A stretch of DNA of 64,000 bases from Telopea speciosissima. Lineage: Eukaryota > Streptophyta > Magnoliopsida > Proteales > Proteaceae. Under the pieces are notes generated by a model. The model saw only the letters and a list, made by a program, of their open reading frames with translations, was not told where the DNA came from and did not search any database. The translations under genes and the position numbers were made by a program. Below, in pieces: positions 25,492-59,661 of the stretch (positions are counted from its first letter, which is position 1; every line of letters starts with the position of its first letter). The DNA lies in contig NC_057921.1 in assembly GCF_018873765.1 (NCBI RefSeq), positions 27,191,784 to 27,255,783 of the forward strand, in the 5' to 3' direction.

Positions 25492-27892
25492 ATGGATGAT
25501 GAAATATCTGGTTCATTTCGACGCACATCAAGCCGGACTCGAAAGGTTGCTTCAAAAATGGTTGCTGCCCTTGCAAGCAGCGATAATAGAACACAGGTAT
25601 GTGGTCTTTATTTCATCAAACATGCCAAAGTTTTTGTTTCAGTGAGTTTATAAAAATTAACTTTCTTTTTGATTGAAAACATACAATGCTCAAATCTGTA
25701 CTTTATTCCCCGTGTAAAATAGGGGAAAAAACTGTTTTTTGTTGTTTCCGGTTTTTTTTTTGTTTTTTTTTGTGTTACTGTGAGAACCATGCCAATAACC
25801 ACTTAAAAATTAAAATTGAATATTGTTTCTAAGTTTTGAAAATCTGGACTGCCCAACGTATTTGTCATAATATTCACAAGCACAGCCAGGCCCAACCATA
25901 GGTTGGGATCTTAGAGGCTGGACCTGGCCTGTGCAAGTTCATCACAGAAGCTTAGGACTGGGCCGAAGCAGACAGCGTGTGGTATGGGGGTGGATTTAGG
26001 GGTAAGAGAGAGACAAGTTGCATGTGGGGGAGGTAGGGAGAGACTAAAGAGATGTGGGAGTTAGGGGGGGGGGGGGGGCAATGGTGAGAGAGGGAGAGGT
26101 CCAAAAGAGAGGGTGAGAGAGGCGGAATTGGCGGCTATGACATGAGAGATTGGGAGACAGAAGAATCAAGGTTTATGGTGATTTTTTTTAAAGAATGAAA
26201 AACTACCCTCTTATTTCCTGTGTGCAAAACTGCTTTACTTAAAACTCTAGCACAAAAACAGAAAAACTATGGTTCAAACCTATTTTATTTTTGTTTGATC
26301 CCACATCGATTCTGAGTGGGATCATCCATGTCTTCTCCACTGAATAGACTTGTCTTTGAGATGGAAACTTACACGGTATCAGAGCTGGTGTCGATCCTGC
26401 CTCTCTGTTCCATCCTTCCTTCCATGTATAGTGATTCTGAACAGCCTACACGTGAAAGGGAAGTGTTAGATCCCACATCAGTTGAGTGGGATCATCCATG
26501 TCTTCATATACCTGGGAGTACCTCCAATGAACAGATGTCTTTTGAGATGGAAACTTAAAATTTTTTGTTTTGAAAAACCGGCCAAAACTTGTTCTGGAAA
26601 ACAGAGTTTTTTGCTTTTAAAAACTGTTTTTCAATTCCATAAGAGTTTTTTTTTTTTTTTTGAAAAACAGGAAAACAGTTTCTCGAAATGTCATCCAAAG
26701 AGGCTGTGATTTCTAGGATTTATGCCATCTTATAAGCATTGATTGATTTCCTGGAAATGTTCTATTTAGGCAGCCCTTGCTCGTCTTGAAGCTTTGGAAA
26801 GTGACAATGTAGGACCAGAGGTGATAGAGCTTAATGATGATGATGATGCTTCTCTTGATGATGATGATTCAGGTATATCGCATTCGTATTGTTGTAATCA
26901 TGATGCCAAAGCCAGTCCGGAGGCTGAATTGTTTGGGCCCATAGCTCACTGGTGGCTGGTCTGGATGTTCTGAACAATCTTTGGTCTGTACAAGGATCCA
27001 GTTTTTGTGTTTTAAGTTGTTTTTTGCTATCGTTGAGGTTCAACTGGCTCATCCATCCGTACCTGTATGGTTTGCCTGTATTGACAATCTGTACATGTGA
27101 TACGAGTTGAGCTTCTTTTTTCTTTTCGAGTCAAGGGGTATTGGCTTATAGAAAATATACTTCATCTTCTCCTCGAATGCGCTAATGTTAGGATACCTAA
27201 TCAAGAGAATTGTACACATGGGCTATATCCTGTTGCTTGCATTGCCTTATGAACAAAGCATTGTTAATTTTTGGTTATTTGCTTGTGTAATGTTTATACT
27301 TTTATTTTTGTTTATAATTTCCATTTATTTATGGGTGTAGTACATGTACAAAAAAGGCAGTCGAAGAACACAAAACGTAGAACGCGGCAGGCAAAAGCAC
27401 TTGAGAATGCAAAGAAGGCCCCAAGAACATTCCTGGAACTCTTACAGGAGGTGAGGAGAGTGTGTGTGTGTGTGCATATGGTTTGCCACTTATGTTCGTG
27501 TTTGAGTTTGCTATTCTGATGAATCTAGTGGGCGACCTGTTGGTTGGGTTCAAAACTTGGAAACAGCTTCTCCTGCGAAGCGGGGGTTAAGGCTGCATAC
27601 ATTTGCCCCTCCAGACCCTGCAGTAGTAGGAGCCTCCTGCACTGAATGCTCTTTATTCTGATGAATCTAATCATTCCTTTAAAAACAGGCAAATTTGGAA
27701 TCCTTGCCTCTACATGTTCCTTCCTATTTAAAAGCAGCAGTGGGACCCCCAAGCTCAACTTCCCGCCGACATTTCTGCACGGTATGTGGATTCTCAGCCA
27801 ATTATACATGCGTAAGGTGTGGTGTTCGCTTCTGTTCAGGTCGCTGCCAGAATATACACAATGATACTCGTTGTTTGAAGTTTGTTGCCTGA
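25492..27892 (+). CDS. SWC6: SWR1 chromatin-remodelling complex subunit 6, four exons
   Basis: SWC6 (also called SEF in Arabidopsis) is a nuclear subunit of the SWR1 complex, which swaps H2A for H2A.Z and so affects flowering time. Exons: 25492-25596, 26770-26872, 27341-27450, 27689-27892. All introns are GT-AG (GTATGT, GTATAT and GTGAGG donors). Joined, they give 173 residues, close to the family length. The N-terminus is basic (RTSSRTRKVASKM). An acidic Asp run (about 60-69) and a Lys/Arg-rich segment follow, then the conserved FLELLQEANLESLP across the exon 3/4 junction. The C-terminal HIT zinc finger has ligands C136, C139, C147, C150, C155, C159, H163 and C168. All key residues are intact and the gene looks functional. 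Intron 1 carries a TRIM and intron 3 an Au SINE. The start at 25492 begins the family-typical acidic MDDE. Confidence 0.97.
26292..26559 (+). mobile_element. TRIM (miniature LTR retrotransposon) in SWC6 intron 1
   Basis: Two short LTRs (26292-26373, 82 bp; 26464-26559, 96 bp) share GATCCCACATC, GTGGGATCATCCATGTC and TTTGAGATGGAAACTTA. After the 5' LTR comes GGTATCAGAGC (26375-26385), matching the initiator tRNA-Met primer site. GTGAAAGGGAAG before the 3' LTR serves as polypurine tract. A perfect 5-bp TSD ATTTT flanks it (26287-26291, 26560-26564). The 268-bp element has no coding capacity and is in the sense orientation of the gene. The 3' LTR has lost the terminal CA. Confidence 0.93.
27528..27653 (+). 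mobile_element. Au-type SINE in SWC6 intron 3
   Basis: The insertion is flanked by a perfect 16-bp TSD TATTCTGATGAATCTA (27512-27527, 27654-27669). The body matches the Au SINE at 7993 (GGAAACAGC, GTTAAGGCTGCATACATTTG, CCAGACCCTGCAGTAG, GGAGCCT-TGCACTG) but lacks box A, so it is internally or 5' shortened. Its right TSD ends only 19 bp before exon 4, inside the usual branch-point and polypyrimidine zone of the intron. Confidence 0.95.
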
Positions 27893-29567: not shown

Positions 29568-30103
29568 TGCTTGACGTGGAACAATGTTTGCCCGCAAGGA
29601 TAAGATGTGAGGCACAAGAGAGAATCGAAAGGGTCTCCAGGGGGGACTCTCCGATGCTTAAGTCAAGTTCTTCAACAACAACGATGAGAACTAGTAGACT
29701 AATAGTGCAGAAAACTAGCTAGTAGTGAATTTGATCCATACCTATAAGATTATCTATGTATTTATATCTTGGAGTGGGCGGTGGGGGAAAGTCCAATCAA
29801 GGTAGGTATCTCCAAAAGGAGGTTGAATCTTTGTGGGAGATCAGAATGGAAAGTGGATCCCTAGGGAGAGTCCCGATGTGGAAGGTTTCCTCAAATTGTC
29901 TGGCTATGAAGTTGGTCTCTTGGTTGGAGAGTACTTCCAGTAGAAGGGTGCTCCAGATGGAAAGTCTTAATGTGGAGAGTTTGAATTTGGTGTGGGTCCT
30001 CCGCGGGGCAGAAGAAGAGTTACAATCTACTAAGGAAGCTTGGCATCTCATGATTTAAGGGCTTTTCATGCCACGTGTCGTGCATGCATTGTTGAATAAT
30101 ATT

Positions 30104-31925
30104 GGGAAAATTTCATGGACACCCCCTAAAAGTATCCAATATCTTAGAAACTTACCATACTTGGTCAAAATGTCACAGACACCCCAAACGTTAAGCACAG
30201 TTAGTACCCAAAGGTGAAATATCCATTTTACCCCTTAGTTATTTAAATAAAAGGACAAAATTGTCATTTCATCTTCTTCCCTTTATGGCTCCGGCTCCGG
30301 CGACCACTTGCTCAGGCGACTATTACCAACGGCAAGGCAAGGAGAAAAAAGTCTGAAACAGGGATGGATTTCCCTGAGCTAGGATCGCTAACTCCTTAGC
30401 CTTCTTCAGTAATCAGTTCCTTCGCTTTGAGAAAGTCACCTACCTGATCATCGAATTGTCGATCCTTCGGGTCATGATCTTTCCTCTTTTTTATTTTATT
30501 TTAAATACATCAATAATCTAGTTTCTCTTACTTCAAGCACTTAGTTTTGCTTCTCGGCGTTCTCGGATTTACAATAATCACATAAATAGAGACCTATATT
30601 TGTAGATCGGAGTTATCCACTTCAAGCAACAAAATCAGCTGCTGCTATAGATGTTAACTCCCATAGCACCATTCCAACTCTAGTGGCCATACTTTTGGAA
30701 CTCACACTCATTGTTATCTAAGGGACACACTTGTCGGGTCTTGAGCCATCGGCTGATACAGTGGAAGTGAAACGCATGGTTGCACACACCCCAAGCTACC
30801 GTGCACTCCTCACTGGTCGCGCTAGCTTGATTAACTTGACACTCTATACAAAGATCCATGATATGATTCCTGCAAATTGCACAATTATCCACCACAATAT
30901 CCCAAGCCCAAAGGGCTACGGCATTCCACTTCTTAATCTCGAATAGTTTAGGTTTCTTCGTTGAAGATGAAGGACCGGCGCCGCTCAAACCCTCGCCGAT
31001 GGGAACCATGTTAATATCGGTGTCCAGAGACGCCATGTTTGCAGCACCATACAGAGAGAATCTGGGAGAGAGATGGAAAAACCAAAATTTTTTCCCCGCT
31101 TCTCCATCACGATCTTTCCTTTCCCCATCCCTACCACTTCAGATAGTTAGGGTTTCACTCTCATTTTCTCTCTAAATTTGCGGTAGGAAGGAGAGTTTCA
31201 GCTTTAAGATCTGATTAGAAGACATCATCAAAAGAAAAAACGAAGAAATAAAAAGTTAAATCAGAAAACATTAGAGGAACATATAACCCAGTAAAGATGA
31301 AAAAATTAGAAATCAGAACAGAAAAATTGAAGTTTTCCGGGAAAGATTTAGGGTCTGTACCTGTAGTGACGGCGACCAGAGCTTTTCTACATACGATGAG
31401 TTCTTCGTCAATTCAGTGGTTCTGAGATTGTTCTTTGTGATGTCTTTTTTTTGGGTAACAACAGCTTTTAAAATTATAAGGAAAGGCAAAGAAGCGGTTT
31501 TCAGGATACTGTAACCACTTATTTTCGATCTGTTCAAGTTTTGAATAGAACAAAGCTTGAACAGCAGAAGGAGAAGAAGGAGAAGGAGGGCTGGAGGGGG
31601 TGGCAGTGGTGGTGGTGGTGGCGGCGGTGGAAGAAACAGCAGAAGGAGAAGAAGGAGAAGAAGAAGGGAAGAAAATGGGTTTCACAGGTAAGGGTAATTT
31701 CATCATGTAAGTGGAAAATGGAGAAGAAGTGGGGAAATGGGTTTCACAGGTAAGGGTAATTTCGCCATTTAAAAAGAGTTAACAGACACTTAACTGCAGA
31801 GACTAATGGAGTGGACTAAGTTGAAATAAATTCATAAAAATAGGGGGTGTCTGTGACATTTTGACCAAGTATGGTAAGTTTCTGAGATATTGGATACTTT
31901 TAGGGGGTGTCTGTGAAATTTTTCC
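30104..31925. mobile_element. Pack-MULE carrying an RBX1 reading frame
   Basis: A 1822-bp element with terminal inverted repeats of about 85 bp: the left end GGGAAAATTTCATGGACACC pairs with the right end, whose reverse complement begins GGAAAAATTTCACAGACACC. It is flanked by a perfect 9-bp TSD AATAATATT (30095-30103, 31926-31934), the Mutator-superfamily length. Subterminally, ATGGGTTTCACAGGTAAGGG occurs twice (31675-31694, 31738-31757). There is no transposase. Inside lie an intact RBX1 frame on the minus strand and its leader-like CT-rich sequence. The flanking 30260-30600 and 31320-31430 segments may be other captured pieces. The right-hand portion holds AGAAGGAG-rich microsatellite sequence (31557-31670). 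Confidence 0.95.
30680..31036 (-). CDS. RBX1: RING-box protein 1 (cullin-RING ligase subunit), inside a Pack-MULE
   Basis: RBX1 is the RING-H2 subunit that recruits the E2 enzyme to cullin ubiquitin ligases. The frame is uninterrupted: 118 codons from MASLDTD to the family's C-terminus FQKYGH. The cullin-binding strand [21 protein letters not shown] is at about 32-52. All zinc ligands are present: C52, C55, C63, C66, C78, C85, H87, H90, C93, C104 and D107. One oddity is Cys111, where RBX1 proteins normally have Trp (NNECEF for NxEWEF). No introns interrupt it, so either a retrocopy or an intronless paralogue was captured. It lies minus-strand inside transposon TIRs with a CT-rich leader upstream (31037-31190). 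Coding capacity is clear; whether it is expressed is unknown. Confidence 0.93.
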
Positions 31926-34264
31926 AATAATATTTATGTATATCAGAGGCCCCCACTTAGTATGGGACTGAGGGAGTAGATCAAGCCAAGTGTTGAAGTA
32001 ATTTGATCGTTCTATTTGCTTGATCGAGGCCAAATGTGGTAGGGTTTTCGATGCGGGCCAAACATTTTGATCGACTAGGAAATCACAGTTCGGGGCACAG
32101 TTCGGGGTGTCTTGTTTCGGTTCAAAGCATGTCTCTACAAGCCTTCTTTCCTAAAAGTATTTGTGAGCGGGCTTCTATTGGAACCATCAATTCGTAGTCG
32201 CGTATTCAGGGTTTAGGGTTTTGATTCATCCTTTTGTTGCTGAGGTACTAGGATGGTATGGCATTGCTCCAGCCCAGTTGGTGCCTAATTCCTGGAGGAT
32301 TATAGTGGGCTTATTATCACTTGCGAAACTCTTAAGATTGATCCTTCTATCAAGCATTTTTCTTATTGCCATTCACATACACTTCAAGTGATTCGTATTA
32401 TATTAGCCGTCAGACTAAAGTGGTGAAGGAGTTGGTTAAAGATCTACCTTCTTCCAATCCTTATTGGAAGAAGAAGTATTTTTTTGTCCAACTCCGACTA
32501 TCTAGTGGGAAACCCATTCCCTTCAGTATGGCATGAAGCCTATGTCTAAGGGGCGGTATAAGGAGGTCAATTGTATGTCTCTCCTCGTGTAGTAGCACAT
32601 TGCACCAGTAATAAGGAGGCCAGGCCGATTGAGAGGTCAGTGTTAGAGTCTATGGAGGGGCTCGAGGAGCTCAAGAAGTCGGGTGAGTCTAGGGTTTGAT
32701 TTAACCTGTGGCAGTGTCGCTTCTACTTATTTTAGGCACTAATATTGATTAGCTTTTGCTTTTTGAAGTGAGACTTACAAGGGGGACTTCGTCTACTCAC
32801 GAGGTGGGCAAGTCATCGAAGCGTCAAAGAGTCATTTCTCTACCCGAGGAGGAGGGTCTCGCTAGTCTGGGTATTCTGAATACTGAGGGTGTCCCAACCA
32901 TGGGAGGTCGGGTTCTCCGTCCTACTGGTGAGACTTCGTCTTGAGGCCAGACCTCGGGGGCATCTTTAGATGTGATGGCTTCTGGGGGAGCTATGGATCA
33001 CATAGTTGGTCTTGCCGATAGGGAGACCTCATTGTACGGGAGTTTAGAGCTCGTCCCTTCTCCCGAAGGGGAATGGTTTTCTACCCGAGGAGGAGCCAAG
33101 GACGCCGATACTGTGAGGGGAAACTCTCAGTCTACTGAGGAAGTGTCTCGTTGTGATTGGCTATCTCTAGCTCAGACAGCCATTAGAATGCTAGATGACT
33201 GGAAGCTGCGTAGTGAGGTCCTAGCGTACACTTTCTGGGTAAGTTCCCATCTCTTTGTTGATATTCGTTTCTGGCATTTACCTGTGCTCTTATGCCGTTT
33301 GGGTTTTCTGTCAGGGTCATCTCGCTTTAATAGAGCTATGCAATCGCTACAAGAAGATCTTGGAAGTTCGAGATCAGTTTGAGAATCATCTTATTGAGGA
33401 GGTACACTCAAATCGGAGGTTGTCATAAGTAGTGATCCGAGATCAATCTCGTATGGCTATCCGTCTGAGGACTTGGAAAAAGCTTCGTAAAGAGTGGCAT
33501 AAATTGAGGAAGAGCTCAAGCGAGCACAAGAGAAGGCAGCGCACTTCTCTGAGCAGTCGGAGAGAGCTTGGAGCCAAGCTAGCGAGTCTGACGAATTGCA
33601 GGTGGAGGTTGGGTTGGACCGGGCCTGCCTAAACCCTGACCCTGACCCTGACCCTAGAGGTCTTAACCTAAACCTGACCCTGACCCTGACCCAACCCTGG
33701 CAGGGCCAAGAAACCCTCAACCCTGACCCGACCCTGCCAGGGTTTTCCTTGACCCGGCCAGGCCTGACCCGACCCGATCCTGATAGGGTCGGGCAGCGTC
33801 GGGTTGGCCCTGATTGACCCTATCTTGACCCTGTTTTAACCCTGTCTTGACCCTGATTGATATATATCAAAGAATATATCTAAAAAAAACCTGAAAATTT
33901 TTTGAAAGAAGAAGAATAAGAAGGGAAGGAGAGAGAGAGACTTGATCAAACCTCATTCTATAGCTTTTGGTCAAAAGTTTTAATGAGGATCATTCATTCA
34001 ACAACCACCAGAGCTTTTGACTCTTCTGGGTTATTAAGAAATCATCCAGACAGGGGACCTTGGTGGCATTGAAATAAAACTATAGAAAACTGTGTTAACA
34101 GACCAAACCATTTTTGGGAAATTCCAATTTGATTTGGTTTTTTAGGCAAAAAAAATTATATCTGTGGAAAATAAATCAAATCTACAGTGGGTTTTACTTT
34201 TCTTAGGCTACTTGTGTTGAAAAGAAAGTTACCTTCTTTACTAGTGCTAGAACTCATTGTTAGA

Positions 34265-34273: not shown

Positions 34274-34361
34274 TCTTGGATTGGCTGTATAGCTTCAATT
34301 CAACTATATTGAGCCCTTTTGTGTTTGTAATCTTTCTTTTAAGTTTGTGGGTTTCTCTCAA

Positions 34362-34527
34362 ATGAGAATTGCTGCTATGTCTTCTCCATCCAAGAGTGGA
34401 TCCAATTATGGTGAAGAAGATAGTGAGCTAAGAAGAGGGCCATGGACCCTTGAAGAAGACACTCTTCGCATCCATTACATTTCTCATCATGGTGAAGGTT
34501 GTTGGAATCTATTAGCTAGATGTTCAG
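34362..34527 (+). pseudogene. Captured first exon of an R2R3-MYB gene
   Basis: The exon encodes about 55 residues: a short N-terminus (MRIAAMSSPSKSG), then LRRGPWTLEEDT and ISHHGEGCWNLLARCSG, the first half of the R2 repeat of R2R3-MYB transcription factors. It ends TGTTCAG followed by GTAAAC, exactly where MYB genes have their first intron. The first two repeat Trp residues are present (PW, CWN). R3 and the remaining exons are missing, so no DNA-binding domain can form. It resembles stress-related MYBs (the group with AtMYB2/62/78/108). It was carried here with its promoter by a DNA transposon. Confidence 0.9.
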
Positions 34528-34782
34528 GTAAACAAACAAACAAACAGTTGTTATCCCAAGTCTACAGCTAATCAAGGAATTGATAAAGACAAATAGATCA
34601 TAGAGAACATGCATTCAAAGATTTAAAAAACACTAAACACAGAAGCTGATCAAGAGAGATGCATTTTCAGATCTGAGTCCACGCAAACACACAAAGACCA
34701 CCCCATATGAAGTACTAGTAGCAGTGTTGCGAGGATGGGGAAAGGCCCAAATAAAAATGAAGTGATGAACATTAGAACATAC

Positions 34783-45966: not shown

Positions 45967-48178
45967 GTGGCCCGTTCAAATTTTAGAAGACCAACCCAGA
46001 CTGCTGGTCCTGCCCTTGAGGCGGACGAGGCCAAAGAGGTCAAAATTGTGGTTGTGGAGAGTCAGGGTTCAGTTGACCACGGGGGTCGAGATCTGGTCGA
46101 CCAGGGAGATCAGGTTGGTTCTGATGAAGAAGATGACGAGCATGATGAAGATATGACGATGATTCCGATAGCAGTAGTGATGAGTCTGAATCGGATGAGC
46201 AGCAAGAAAGTGTGTATAACGTATCTAGCGTTCTAGTCGAATCTGACCTAATCCGAATAAGGAAAAAATATAGGATTTCGGATCAGGTCTCCTTAAGAAT
46301 TCCCTCCGAGGAAGAGATGGCCTGCCACACCCAGAGTCCCTGGGTCAGTCTTTATGAGATGTATTTTTTCAATAGACTTAGGCTTCCCATCCTGAGCCTT
46401 GTTAAGGATATATTTGACCATTGGCAACTGACTCCTTGTCAACTTGTTCTGAATTCTTGGAGGATCATCCTCGGCTTCTATGTGTTCTTTAAAAAGGTCA
46501 AATGTGAACTGATCGTACCTTTATTTTCATTTTACTTCCTGTTAAAAAAGTGTAATACAGATGGGTGGTTCTACTTCACCCGACATAACTTAAGCAAGAA
46601 TAAGAAAGGGCTAACGCTCTTCGTAGTAATGCCCACCTCTGTCAAGAAGTGGAAAGATCGGTTCTTCTATGCCAATATTCCTGCGTCACCCTTCAGATCA
46701 GAGTGGAAGGAGATCAAATTAAAGCATGTGAACCGATCCCTTCCTCTTAATGACGATGAAGAGAAATTCGTTGCTCGGGCTCGTAAAGCAAAGAAGTTTG
46801 ATGTCAGAAAGCTGAACTCTAAAGATTTCTTAAAAGAATGGGATATGGGTGAGTTGAATCGACTCGGCTCAGCTTTGGATTTCAAAGATTTATTCTAACT
46901 CTTTTAGATATATTCTTCTATGTAGCGACTTTCAAGTTGGATAAAAATAGCCTTGCCCGAGCGACTCTTGAGAAGAAAAAGAAAGCGGCAGAGGAGAGGG
47001 AGTCCAGGAAAAAAGGTGAACCGAGCCGTGCTACTGTTCCCACATCGGTTCAGTGGGAAAAAGGAAAGATAGGCGAAATGATCCCATCCAAATCTCAAAA
47101 GGGAGGTTCGAGCATGCCCCCCAACACCGCAGTTGTGATAATTAAGGATAAGGATGGTTGGATAGATAGAGACGACAGAGGGGGGAGAGAGAAGAGAAGA
47201 AGGGATGACCCGGTCCTTCCTCCAGCCAAGCGTACTGATCGGGAGAAGATCATCATCTCTCTCGAAGAGAAAGGAAAAAAATGTGGAGATGAAGCCTCGG
47301 CTTAAGGACCCTGCTGAGCCAAACTATTTAATCCGGTGGAATTTGAAAGCCGGAGATTTGGAAGTGGACGACCGCGCTATGACTCGGGAATGGGTTTGTA
47401 AGTGTCGGCTTCCTTGGGACCAGGATAAAGTGAAGTAGCTCTCTAATGGGGCTTTTCCCATGAGTACCACAAGCATTTGAGTGCGGTATGCTGCTGACTT
47501 CATTTATTTATTTCTTATTATTATTTACGAAGCCAAAACGATGTGATGCCGGGATGTACTTTTTGCTCTTTTTCTCTTTTTCTTTTTTAGGATTTTAATT
47601 TTGCCGCTGAGGCTGGTCTTTGCCTGGAGGATCTTGCTCATAAGCAATGGGATACTAGTCTGAAGCTCAGCACGACTCTAGGGGAGAAGAAAGAGCTCGA
47701 AACGAAAGTTGCTCATCTCGAGGCCACAATTACAGATCTCTAGGACAAGCTTGCCTCTCGAGAACTATAGACCTCCAAGATTACTGAGGAAAGAGATCGG
47801 TATCATAACGAGAACATGGATTTGACCAAGTTTTTGGCGGATGCTCGGGACGAGGCCCAGGAGATCATGGCCATGGCAGATGAAGATCAGATGATGGTTT
47901 GGTTGTCCATAATAAAGGACTTTAAGGCTTTGACGGAGTTCGGTAGGTTGGTCACCTCTTATAATGCGGATGCCTTTTCGATGGGTGCTAACGATGCCTG
48001 TCAACGCGTCTTAAAGGAGATTACGACCTTCAAATTTTCAAACTATACACATTATGATGCACTGGTCGAGACGATCGTACTTGAGACTAAAGATGATCGG
48101 GTTGAAGAAGGCTTAGAAGTTGACCAAGATGGTGAAATAGTTTATGTGACCTTCACGAAGGAGGATAGGGAAATATAG
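45967..48178 (+). pseudogene. Tat antisense ORF (PF04195-type), nearly readable
   Basis: Plus-strand coding sequence antisense to gag-pol. An acidic N-terminal part (45967-46236) leads by a frameshift to the conserved 'putative gypsy type transposon' domain (46212-46898; QLVLNSWRIILGFYVFF, GWFYFTRHNLSK, KKWKDRFFYAN). A Lys/Arg-rich charged segment follows (46937-47438). After an intron-like gap with acceptor TTTTTTAG (ends 47590) comes a coiled-coil-like tail (LEDLAHKQW, GEKKELETKVAHLEAT) and a conserved acidic C-terminus ending at 48178. Only two stops mar the last exon. Long open stretches in a dead element suggest the protein was under selection until recently. Its role is unknown. Confidence 0.82.
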
Positions 48179-48412: not shown

Positions 48413-49049
48413 GAGGTCTTTACCAACCCGGAGGTCGGCCTCATCAACTCTTAAATGAGGACGATCTTTCCTATTCGCCTCAGAATTCTGGTCTCTGCCA
48501 ACCCGGAGATCGGCCCTTCGCTATTTGCCTCAGAATTTAGGTCTTTACCAACCCAGAGGTCGGCCTCATCAACTCACGAATGAGGAAGATCTTCGTTATT
48601 TGCCCTAGAATTGAGGTCTTTACCAACCCGGAGGTCGGCCTCGTCAACTCCCAAATAAGGACGATCTTTACAGTTTGCTTCAAAATTGAGGTCTTTACCA
48701 ATCCGGAGGTCGGCCTCGTCAACTCACGGATGAGGACGATCTTCACTATTTGCCTAAGAATTGAGGTCTTTACCAACCCGAAGGTCGGCCTCGTCAACTC
48801 ACGGATGAGGATGATCTTTGCAGTTTACCTCAGAATTGAGGTCTTTACCAAATCGGAGGTCGGCCTCGTCAACTCACGGATGAAGATGATCTTTACTATT
48901 TGGCTCAGAATTAAGGTCTTTACCAACCCGGAGGTCGGCCTCGTCAACTCACAGATGAGGACAATCTTCGCTATTTGCCTCAGAATTGAGGTCTTTACCA
49001 ACCCGAAGGTCGGCCTCATCAACTCCCAGATGAGGACGATCTTTGCTGA
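48413..49049 (+). repeat. 75-bp tandem repeat block in the Tat element
   Basis: About nine units begin GAGGTCTTTACCAACCC at 48413, 48488, 48538 (a unit short by 25 bp precedes it), 48613, 48688, 48763, 48838, 48913 and 48988. The 75-bp period is 25 codons, and one frame stays open on each strand (IEVFTNPEVGLVNSRMRTIF on plus). It lies between integrase and the antisense ORF, where Tat elements commonly carry tandem repeats. Confidence 0.95.
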
Positions 49050-57666: not shown

Positions 57667-59083
57667 CTTTTTTTTTTTTTTTTTTTGGTTGGAAATGAAT
57701 TTATTCAGCAAGCCGGGAAACACTCCTGCTACTTGAGGCGACACACTCAGAAAAACAGGGATTGGAATTGGGCCAAACCATCCTTCCCGAAACGGATAGG
57801 GCCCTCCTGGCAAGGCTATCTACTATTGAATTAGTAGACCTTGGAACAAAAGAAAAGATACAATCACCCAAATAAGAAGAAATATGCCTAATATCCTCCA
57901 AAATAGGCAGTATTCTAAGATCAGGCGATTTTGAAGGATCAAGAAGGTAGGAGATAACAATTTGATTATCACTCTCAACGACAATGGAAAGAGTCCCCTC
58001 AAAAACAGCCTCCAACAGCCCCTCCCGGATCGCCAAAGCCTCCCCAACAAGGATATCCTCAAAGACCACCGGGCTATAAACCGCAATGCAACTCCTGCTG
58101 AGATGATCACGAATGACAAAATCCACTCCACTTCTCTTCAAGTCCTGATCCAAATACACATCACAGTTAAGCTTGTAAGCCCCCTGAGGCGGAGGAGACC
58201 AGGCAGGGATCTGATCCACCCTAACACGGCTTTGTTGTGACTCAGGTTTGGAACAGGCAATTAAGAACTCAGAACAAGCTTTGTGGGCTGCTTGGACCAC
58301 CTCCTCACCCGACCAAGACCTTCCATTAAAGAGCAAATCATTCCTAGAAGACCAGAGGTACCAAAGCACAAAACAGAACAAGGTCGTAAGCTCCTTGTAA
58401 ACCGTCTTCCCACGCACTAAGAGGCTACTCCAGTTTTGAATGACTTGATAAAGCTTAAGGTTGTGCCCATTTGGAAGCAAGGAGTGCAAGCTACAACCAA
58501 ACCAGACCGCCCGCGCATACGAACAATGAAGAAAAATATGATCAATGGATTCCTCCTGAAACCCACACTTGCGGCATTGGATGTCAACAGGAATTTGGCG
58601 TTGATGTAAAGCTGCAGCCGATGCCAAGCCCCCTGCGCAAGCTCTCCAGATCAGGGTTCTAATCTTAGGAAGTGTGTTGCTCGACCAAATCGCTTTCCAA
58701 ACAGAAGAAGGAATCTGTTCCCAAGAATGGGACTTAGTCGTGGAAGGCTTAGCAGCCTCGCTCGCTGCCCACTGATTGGAAAGAAGATGGTATGCACTCT
58801 TGACCGAGAAGCGACCGTTCTTCGCTGCCCCCCACACCAGACAATCACCTCTAGGGAACAGACTTAGCTGAATTCTTTTGATGGCCTCCCTATCACTCGG
58901 ATGGAAATACTTTACAAGCATCTCCTCATTCCACTTTCTATTGCCCTGGTCAATTAGATCTGCAACAATCTGAGGAGGATCATTAACAGAGGGAGGAAAT
59001 TGCGGGCGAAAATTTGGAAGGGTTGGAACCCAACTATCAGCCCAAATTCGGATGCACTCTCCATCCCCAACTCTCCAGAGCAG
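57667..59083 (-). mobile_element. 5'-truncated L1 LINE
   Basis: Minus-strand insertion into the tandem array, flanked by a perfect 17-bp TSD CCCATCAATTCGTTTTC (57650-57666, 59084-59100). The poly(A) tail appears as a T run at 57668-57688. Only the 3' 1.4 kb of an L1 remains; endonuclease and RT are missing through 5' truncation during insertion. Confidence 0.96.
57701..59083 (-). pseudogene. L1 ORF2 C-terminus: zinc-binding RT-associated domain plus RNase H
   Basis: An unbroken frame of about 460 codons, unusual for a truncated LINE and so probably a fairly recent insertion. It starts at LLWRVGDGECIRIWADSW, continues through the zf-RVT domain (FSVKSAYHLLSN, WKAIWSSNTLPKIRTLIWRA, CRKCGFQEESIDHIFLHC) and ends in an RNase H fold of the RVT_3 type (KLNCDVYL, GEALAIREGLLEA, VVESDNQIVISYL, FVPRSTNSIVDSLAR). 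The first nine codons of the longest frame (before GLLWR) come from the target-site duplication and flank, so no LINE start codon exists. RNase H motifs look intact (acidic residues in NCD, EALA, ESDN, and D of VDSLA). Confidence 0.93.
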
Positions 59084-59661
59084 CCCATCAATTCGTTTTC
59101 TAAACACCACAACTTCAGTTAATAATCACTAACCATTTTTGTAGTACTTATTCAACCTAAAAGGCGTACCCAATGCACAAGATTCTTGCTTACGAGGTCT
59201 AAAGAAGATTATAATATTCACAGCCTTACCCTTGCTTTGCGGAGTGACAGTTTCTCCGCACAACTTGACAACTTTTGACTTAACAAATTTACAATTAAAA
59301 ATTAAAAACAAAAATATGTGAAAATGGTTGCATCTTTTCCTCAATTTTAATTTTCTTGGGTTTTAATTGATTTTCGGTGATTTCTGATCAATTCATTGTT
59401 CAAAACACCACATCTCCAATCGATAATCACTAATCATTTTGTAGGGGTACTCGTGCAACTAAAGGGCGTACTTAATGCATAAGACTTCGAAGGATTATAA
59501 TGTTCGCAACCTTACCCCATCTTGGCAGAGGGATAGTTTCTCCCCACGACCACGCCTACATTGATGGAACCGAATCTTCTCAACCACGCATCGGACGACT
59601 GGGCGGGTGGCATGCATCCCAAAGACAGCACCCAGCAGTGGAGAGGATCCATTTCCTCCAA

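Follow-up and report, generated by a model that had tools for sequence, protein, structure and literature searches.

A Pack-MULE of Telopea speciosissima that probably acquired RBX1 by retroposition into a captured MADS-box segment

A 1822-bp element in the genome of Telopea speciosissima carries an RBX1 reading frame that is complete and intronless. Our reading, to which we give a probability of about 0.92, is that this element is a composite transposon, built by capture of a MADS-box segment, subsequent retroposition of an RBX1 messenger into that segment, and finally mobilisation as a Mutator-like element (MULE) followed by drift. The element itself is of a known kind; what is unusual is the way in which it was loaded, which is well resolved, and the cargo is decaying. 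The stretch of DNA that was analysed (the window, 64,000 nucleotides) corresponds to C6:27191784-27255783 of the 823-Mb genome, and the features discussed below are collected in Table 1.

The element is bounded by inverted termini (TIRs) of 82-91 nt. The two arms (30095-30185 and 31844-31934) are 95% complementary over 91 nt if the near-palindromic target duplication (TSD) is included, and the same perfect 9-bp TSD, AATAATATT, is present at both ends. Besides RBX1 there is no stop-to-stop frame of at least 150 aa in the element, and a family scan found no transposase family in ten shorter frames of it; the scan returned two weak matches, below the cut-off, in one proline/leucine-rich frame. 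The inverted termini of about 85 bp (about 82 bp by our measure), the perfect TSD and the lack of a transposase that the original prediction had proposed are thus all borne out. The terminus at 30104-30190 has at least 40 genomic matches of at least 95% (40 of the 901 candidates were scored). When the loci found by the TIR search, each covering about 1.5 kb either side of the match, are compared with the element, the match in 27 of the 29 (the window's own excluded) touches neither the MADS nor the RBX1 part; of the remaining two, one is the RBX1 copy on C658 and one an RBX1-less sister. No MULE transposase was found in ten long frames (of the 25 longest) from the loci of the TIR and flank searches, again with about 1.5 kb per match. 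With its long TIRs, 9-bp TSD, captured host segment and no transposase, the element is a Pack-MULE. At another locus, C5:895.3-897.1 kb, a terminus of the same family adjoins a frame that stays open for at least 343-369 codons and contains an RNA recognition motif; this may be a further element whose cargo frame is long and open.

Table 1 Features of the element and its immediate ends, in window coordinates.
Feature	Position	Strand	Basis
Whole MULE-type element	30104..31925	- (cargo sense minus)	TIRs, 9-bp TSD, four more RBX1-bearing genomic copies
MULE TSD copy 1, AATAATATT	30095..30103	.	read from sequence
MULE TSD copy 2, AATAATATT	31926..31934	.	read from sequence
TIR, element 3' end in cargo sense	30104..30185	+	inverted-repeat comparison, genomic matches
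TIR, element 5' end in cargo sense	31844..31925	-	inverted-repeat comparison, matches in other copies
Subterminal MULE sequence, partly common to family members without RBX1	31529..31843	-	family comparison
Subterminal MULE sequence, 3' side	30186..30380	-	family comparison
Captured MADS-box 5' part: leader with likely intron, start codon 31128, first codons	31106..31528	-	91% to donor L059; intron inferred from letters
Captured MADS-box exon sequence, downstream of retrocopy	30381..30487	-	91% to L059
Retrocopy 17-bp target duplication, 5' copy	31106..31122	-	repeat comparison among copies
Retrocopy 17-bp target duplication, 3' copy	30471..30487	-	repeat comparison among copies
RBX1 retrocopy: 5' leader, CDS, 3' UTR; four parental introns missing	30503..31105	-	comparison with parent
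Poly(A) tail remnant (clean A run in C658 copy)	30488..30502	-	copy comparison
RBX1 ORF, 118 codons + stop	30680..31036	-	profile match, alignment to solved chains
Upstream frame from captured MADS ATG	30985..31128	-	frame listing; overlaps RBX1 start, different frame

The claim that the element is nested in a Tat LTR is not supported. No direct repeats longer than 120 bp (E up to 1e-20) bracket the element within the window, and a Tat LTR was rejected as the host site since no LTR pair was found around it. The right flank is nearly unique: 31935-32435 matches itself and three other genomic sequences, the latter at 73-76% and to its last 150-230 bases. A gypsy-type ORF remnant (PF04195, E=6e-9) lies to the right of the element at 32167-32388 on the plus strand, and it is possible that the element sits beside or inside a degraded gypsy element. 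Elsewhere in the window there is a second PF04195 frame ('putative gypsy type transposon') at 46149-46895 (+), a Myb DNA-binding domain frame at 34293-34568 (+), and a tandem repeat of about seven 75-bp copies at 48516-49047. A zf-HIT zinc finger frame, which we take to be SWC6-like, lies about 2 kb from the element at 27683-27889 (+) and is probably an exon of a host gene. A LINE-like frame with zf-RVT and RVT_3 occupies 57704-59125 (-), and nothing ties it to the retroposition of RBX1.

The RBX1 frame of the window copy matches PF12678 (zf-rbx1) with E=6.7e-25, and its residues 19-118 align with solved RBX1 chains. Cys, His or Asp is present at all of what we take, by human RBX1 numbering, to be the 12 zinc-ligand positions, confirming that the 118-codon frame is complete and retains every ligand. 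Its best relative at the protein level is from Cinnamomum micranthum (94%). A six-frame protein search of the genome (137/137 candidates scored) yielded five full-length intronless RBX1 copies, namely that of the window and those at C4:58.24, C1:29.94, C9:55.61 and on C658. All five sit in the same type of element, on five contigs. Of further copies with the same TIRs, which it had been suggested to look for, there are four more RBX1-bearing elements, plus relatives without RBX1. Each of the five is flanked by a perfect 9-bp TSD, and all of these differ (AATAATATT, AAATAAAAA, TTTTATTTA, AAAGAATTA and TTATATTTA); the five copies therefore represent five separate transpositions. Over the 5' 1.2 kb of the element, the part to which this comparison is confined, they differ pairwise by 4.6-7.6%. 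The C1, C4 and C9 copies have one deletion in common, where the 3' UTR ends. RBX1 is complete in the C9 element, but about 5 kb of inserted sequence interrupts its 3' UTR and places the 3' half at C9:55.614. This insertion (C9:55609.4-55614.5 kb) looks retrotransposon-like by eye.

How did a whole intronless gene come to lie in a Pack-MULE? The genome contains two intron-bearing RBX1 genes, at C3:27.831-27.842 Mb and C7:65.208-65.214 Mb. The C3 gene matches the element exon by exon at 94.8-100%, 5' leader and 3' UTR included, and it has introns of 201, 175, 9911 and 95 nt, so that the proposed search for a parental locus and comparison of introns led to a gene of which all four introns are missing from the element. 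The C7 gene was rejected as the parent, with 27-32 differences from the copies vs. 10-18 for C3. The RBX1 segment also has characteristic ends. Following the 3' UTR there is a poly(A) stretch, of about 15 A in C658 and reduced to A-rich remnants in the other copies, and the 17-bp word AGAGGAAAGATCGTGAT is found on both sides of the segment in 5/5 RBX1 elements. Comparing one side with the other, this repeat is identical in C4 and C9, one base apart in C1 and C658, and three bases apart in the window. A flanking target duplication together with poly(A) is what target-primed reverse transcription leaves behind, and retrogenes made by LINE machinery are recognised by intron loss, poly(A) and a long target duplication (about 7-20 bp), whereas retrocopying mediated by LTR retrotransposons should leave a short duplication of about 5 bp.

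Judged from these sequence comparisons, the window RBX1 is a processed retrocopy of the C3 messenger and not genomic DNA captured by a MULE, and LINE machinery probably made it; LTR-retrotransposon-mediated retrocopying is not favoured, given a duplication of 17 bp instead of the expected short one. Capture of RBX1 as genomic DNA, in the usual manner of Pack-MULEs, would account for the MULE termini and the 9-bp TSD, and is in keeping with the second captured gene piece within the element. Such capture should, however, retain introns, and all four are gone, one of them of 9.9 kb; nor does it explain why the RBX1 segment ends in poly(A) and its own private 17-bp duplication, or why sister elements without RBX1 exist (see below). 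We regard it as scarcely credible, and the variant in which introns were lost after genomic capture is ruled out by the poly(A) and the 17-bp duplication. The earlier proposal of a Pack-MULE capture of RBX1 was therefore right about the type of element, the whole frame and the existence of a parent, but RBX1 arrived as a retrocopy, and the true capture is that of the MADS 5' end.

Two observations concern the RBX1 genes themselves. In the parental C3 gene (C3:27831317-27842233) the donor of the 9.9-kb intron 3 is GA and not GT, the C7 paralog having GT, and the C3 gene has a private A41V; the C3 parent may itself be decaying, or this may reflect a rare splice site or an assembly error. At C10:25.84 Mb there are pieces of RBX1 exons 4 and 5 with a short intron-like gap between them, at a distance to the element equal to that of C7, perhaps representing a partial gene duplicate.

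The sequence surrounding the retrocopy allows the events to be put in order. The MADS donor is a locus at C5:3.76 Mb (L059) with a PF00319 SRF-TF frame (E=9e-27); it matches the element along a stretch of 520 bp, at 91% identity. No TIR match was found within the 3422 bases examined at the donor, which also has no RBX1 and a single 17-bp target word. Four further elements have the same MADS capture and no RBX1 (C1:33.70, C4:62.06, C8:52.62 and C4:9.97 Mb). Both termini are seen in three of these empty elements; for C4:62.06 only the 5' terminus was seen, and the match ends at element position 1535. The 17-bp target is single-copy in all four. The capture starts at donor position 1497 or 1501 in 9/9 elements and ends at 2016 in seven of the eight compared for the 3' part (C4:62.06 ends at 2006, and the C9 element was entered without its 3' half). 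Since the empty elements share the capture limits and hold a single 17-bp target like the donor, the MADS capture preceded the retroposition. Additional loci with the 3' MADS piece are present at C9:25.24, C9:55.87 and C10:44.96 Mb, and the six-frame protein search found no full-length RBX1 at these three. An insertion of about 430-445 bp in the MADS leader is likewise common to the four empty elements and is present neither in the RBX1 copies nor in the donor.

An unrooted tree built from the 5' sequence that all nine elements share splits the four empty from the five RBX1 elements with a support of 93. Rooting on the donor makes RBX1 copies and empty copies sisters when all columns are used (supports 51 and 87), and places the empties inside the RBX1 set when the 351 donor-covered columns are used (supports 26-58 on the nodes concerned); the tree is nearly star-like and the donor-rooted order is poorly resolved. 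The second of these rooted trees, with its low support, is what one would expect if RBX1 had retroposed into the MADS-box gene first, a MULE had then taken both, and the empty elements had lost RBX1 later. That order of events would require a loss that exactly restores the single-copy target, as seen in 4/4 empties, and the donor is without RBX1. The insertion common to the empties would allow one loss to serve for all four, but this loss would still have to be exact, and we consider such joint capture improbable, at roughly one chance in twenty.

Our preferred reading, a MADS capture followed by retroposition, comprises three steps. First, in a classic case of Pack-MULE capture, a non-autonomous Mutator-like element took up some 520 bp of a MADS-box gene at its 5' end, as the donor and the common breakpoints show. 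Second, as the sequence shows, a spliced and polyadenylated messenger of the C3 RBX1 gene was reverse-transcribed and inserted into the captured MADS piece at a distance of 23 nt from the MADS ATG (counted from its A), generating the 17-bp target duplication. Third, MULE transposase, presumably supplied from elsewhere, would have mobilised the loaded element. The outcome is a minimum of five copies, one on each of five contigs and each flanked by a 9-bp duplication of its own, after which the RBX1 frames drifted without detectable selection.

An important question is whether the RBX1 of the window works as a gene and thereby increases or perturbs the dosage of cullin-RING ligases, as had been envisaged. 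Its frame is open, its ligands are all retained, and stop to stop it spans 152 codons. Codon ML on seven sequences (codon 101 of C658, a stop, set to missing, the terminal stop dropped and the stem branch pooled with the gene branches) put omega for the element copies at 0.73, 0.80 and 0.73, each value belonging to one of three topologies, with p values for omega=1 of 0.41, 0.55 and 0.40, vs. an omega of 0.020 on the gene branches; comparing two ratios with one gave p values of 8e-9 to 2.2e-8 across the topologies. The Ka/Ks analysis called for earlier thus returns a value for the copies that is not different from 1, and weak constraint is possible because the changes behind the estimate are few (5 to 13 in each copy vs. 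the majority). Third codon positions account for 25-45% of the differences in the ten copy pairs, and for 24 of 27 between C3 and C7. Zinc ligands have been lost in four of the five copies (C66S in C4, C93Y in C1, C93S in C9, and C66G plus H90P in C658), and in the C658 copy codon 101 is a stop.

The window copy departs from the copy majority at five codons, and every one of these changes the amino acid: V13I (the same residue is found in C658), S17L, R31L, A68V and W111C. Among the 120 relatives listed, Trp is present at position 111 in 112, Arg at 31 in 112 and Ala at 68 in 119. Neutral simulation left the frame open and all ligands in place in 45% of the copies that had 6 changes and in 19% of those with 13; because neutrality so often preserves both, the intact window frame needs no selection. 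The ATG that came with the MADS-box segment (31128) precedes the RBX1 start (31036) and is in another frame, which crosses the RBX1 start before its stop ends at 30985. Any RNA transcribed from the MADS leader would carry this overlapping upstream frame, which would probably hinder RBX1 translation further.

On this evidence, the window frame appears to be open since it is short and little diverged and not because it is maintained, and the element copies of RBX1, drifting without detectable selection, look like decaying passengers and not working genes. A protein function for the window RBX1 is unlikely, and a copy that affects ligase dosage is very unlikely indeed, with omega among the copies not different from 1 and ligands lost in four of the five. 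Alternatively, siRNAs from the RBX1-bearing elements might dampen the parental gene. Several dispersed copies match the exons of the parent at about 95%, and Pack-MULEs with captured genes are described as siRNA reservoirs in maize in the accessible text of a recent review (PMC13317346). Five copies were found, however, and the same text notes that selection may remove silencing of essential donor genes (PMC13317346); we consider dampening by siRNAs unlikely, at about one in ten.

With plant Pack-MULEs the element shares long TIRs, a 9-bp TSD, no transposase seen, a captured host piece (here the MADS 5' end) and presence in several copies; it differs in that RBX1 was loaded into the element by retroposition and consists of a whole intronless CDS. 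With LINE-type retrogenes it shares intron loss, poly(A) and a long target duplication, but the integration site here was a mobile Pack-MULE, so that DNA transposition multiplied the retrocopy. Among the open-licence papers listed by a literature search, none described a Pack-MULE with a retrocopy in it from a plant, and the accessible text of a 2026 review of plant gene capture (PMC13317346) makes no mention of retrogene, retrocopy or intron. The closest precedent found, going by the accessible part of that paper, is a fungal hAT element with an intronless histone H3 in Pseudocercospora fijiensis (PMC6710886). There too a DNA transposon multiplies an intron-free housekeeping gene whose copies are inactivated; the element is described as having hundreds of copies inactivated by RIP and a parent under purifying selection, and its authors state that a transcript or retrocopy was captured (PMC6710886). 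The present case differs in being a MULE with five copies and plain drift, and in that the order of events can be read from empty sisters, poly(A) and the 17-bp duplication. Likewise, the human ARF6 retrogene in MER20 lies nearly whole between DNA-transposon termini, and the available text leaves capture vs. recurrent retroposition undecided (PMC8277862).

Taken together, the donor, the empty sisters and the two kinds of target duplication show how a plant DNA transposon can come to contain a whole host gene that no MULE copied from the genome, which accounts for the appearance of a 'whole captured gene' in a Pack-MULE. They also caution against reading function into an intact frame: even with every zinc ligand in place it is weak evidence, given the decay of four sister copies. 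Screens that discard intronless cargo would, this suggests, miss the retroposition route, and one metazoan survey, as far as its accessible text goes, did exclude intronless captured copies of multi-exon genes (PMC8277862). More tentatively, and still rather doubtfully, retroposition into Pack-MULEs might be a regular second route by which whole intron-free host genes come to lie in DNA transposons. If so, captured 5' ends would provide a leader and possibly a promoter, the retrocopy would provide a full CDS, and the TIRs would multiply the composite; the class would be hidden by surveys that drop intronless captures, and some of the composites could be expressed.
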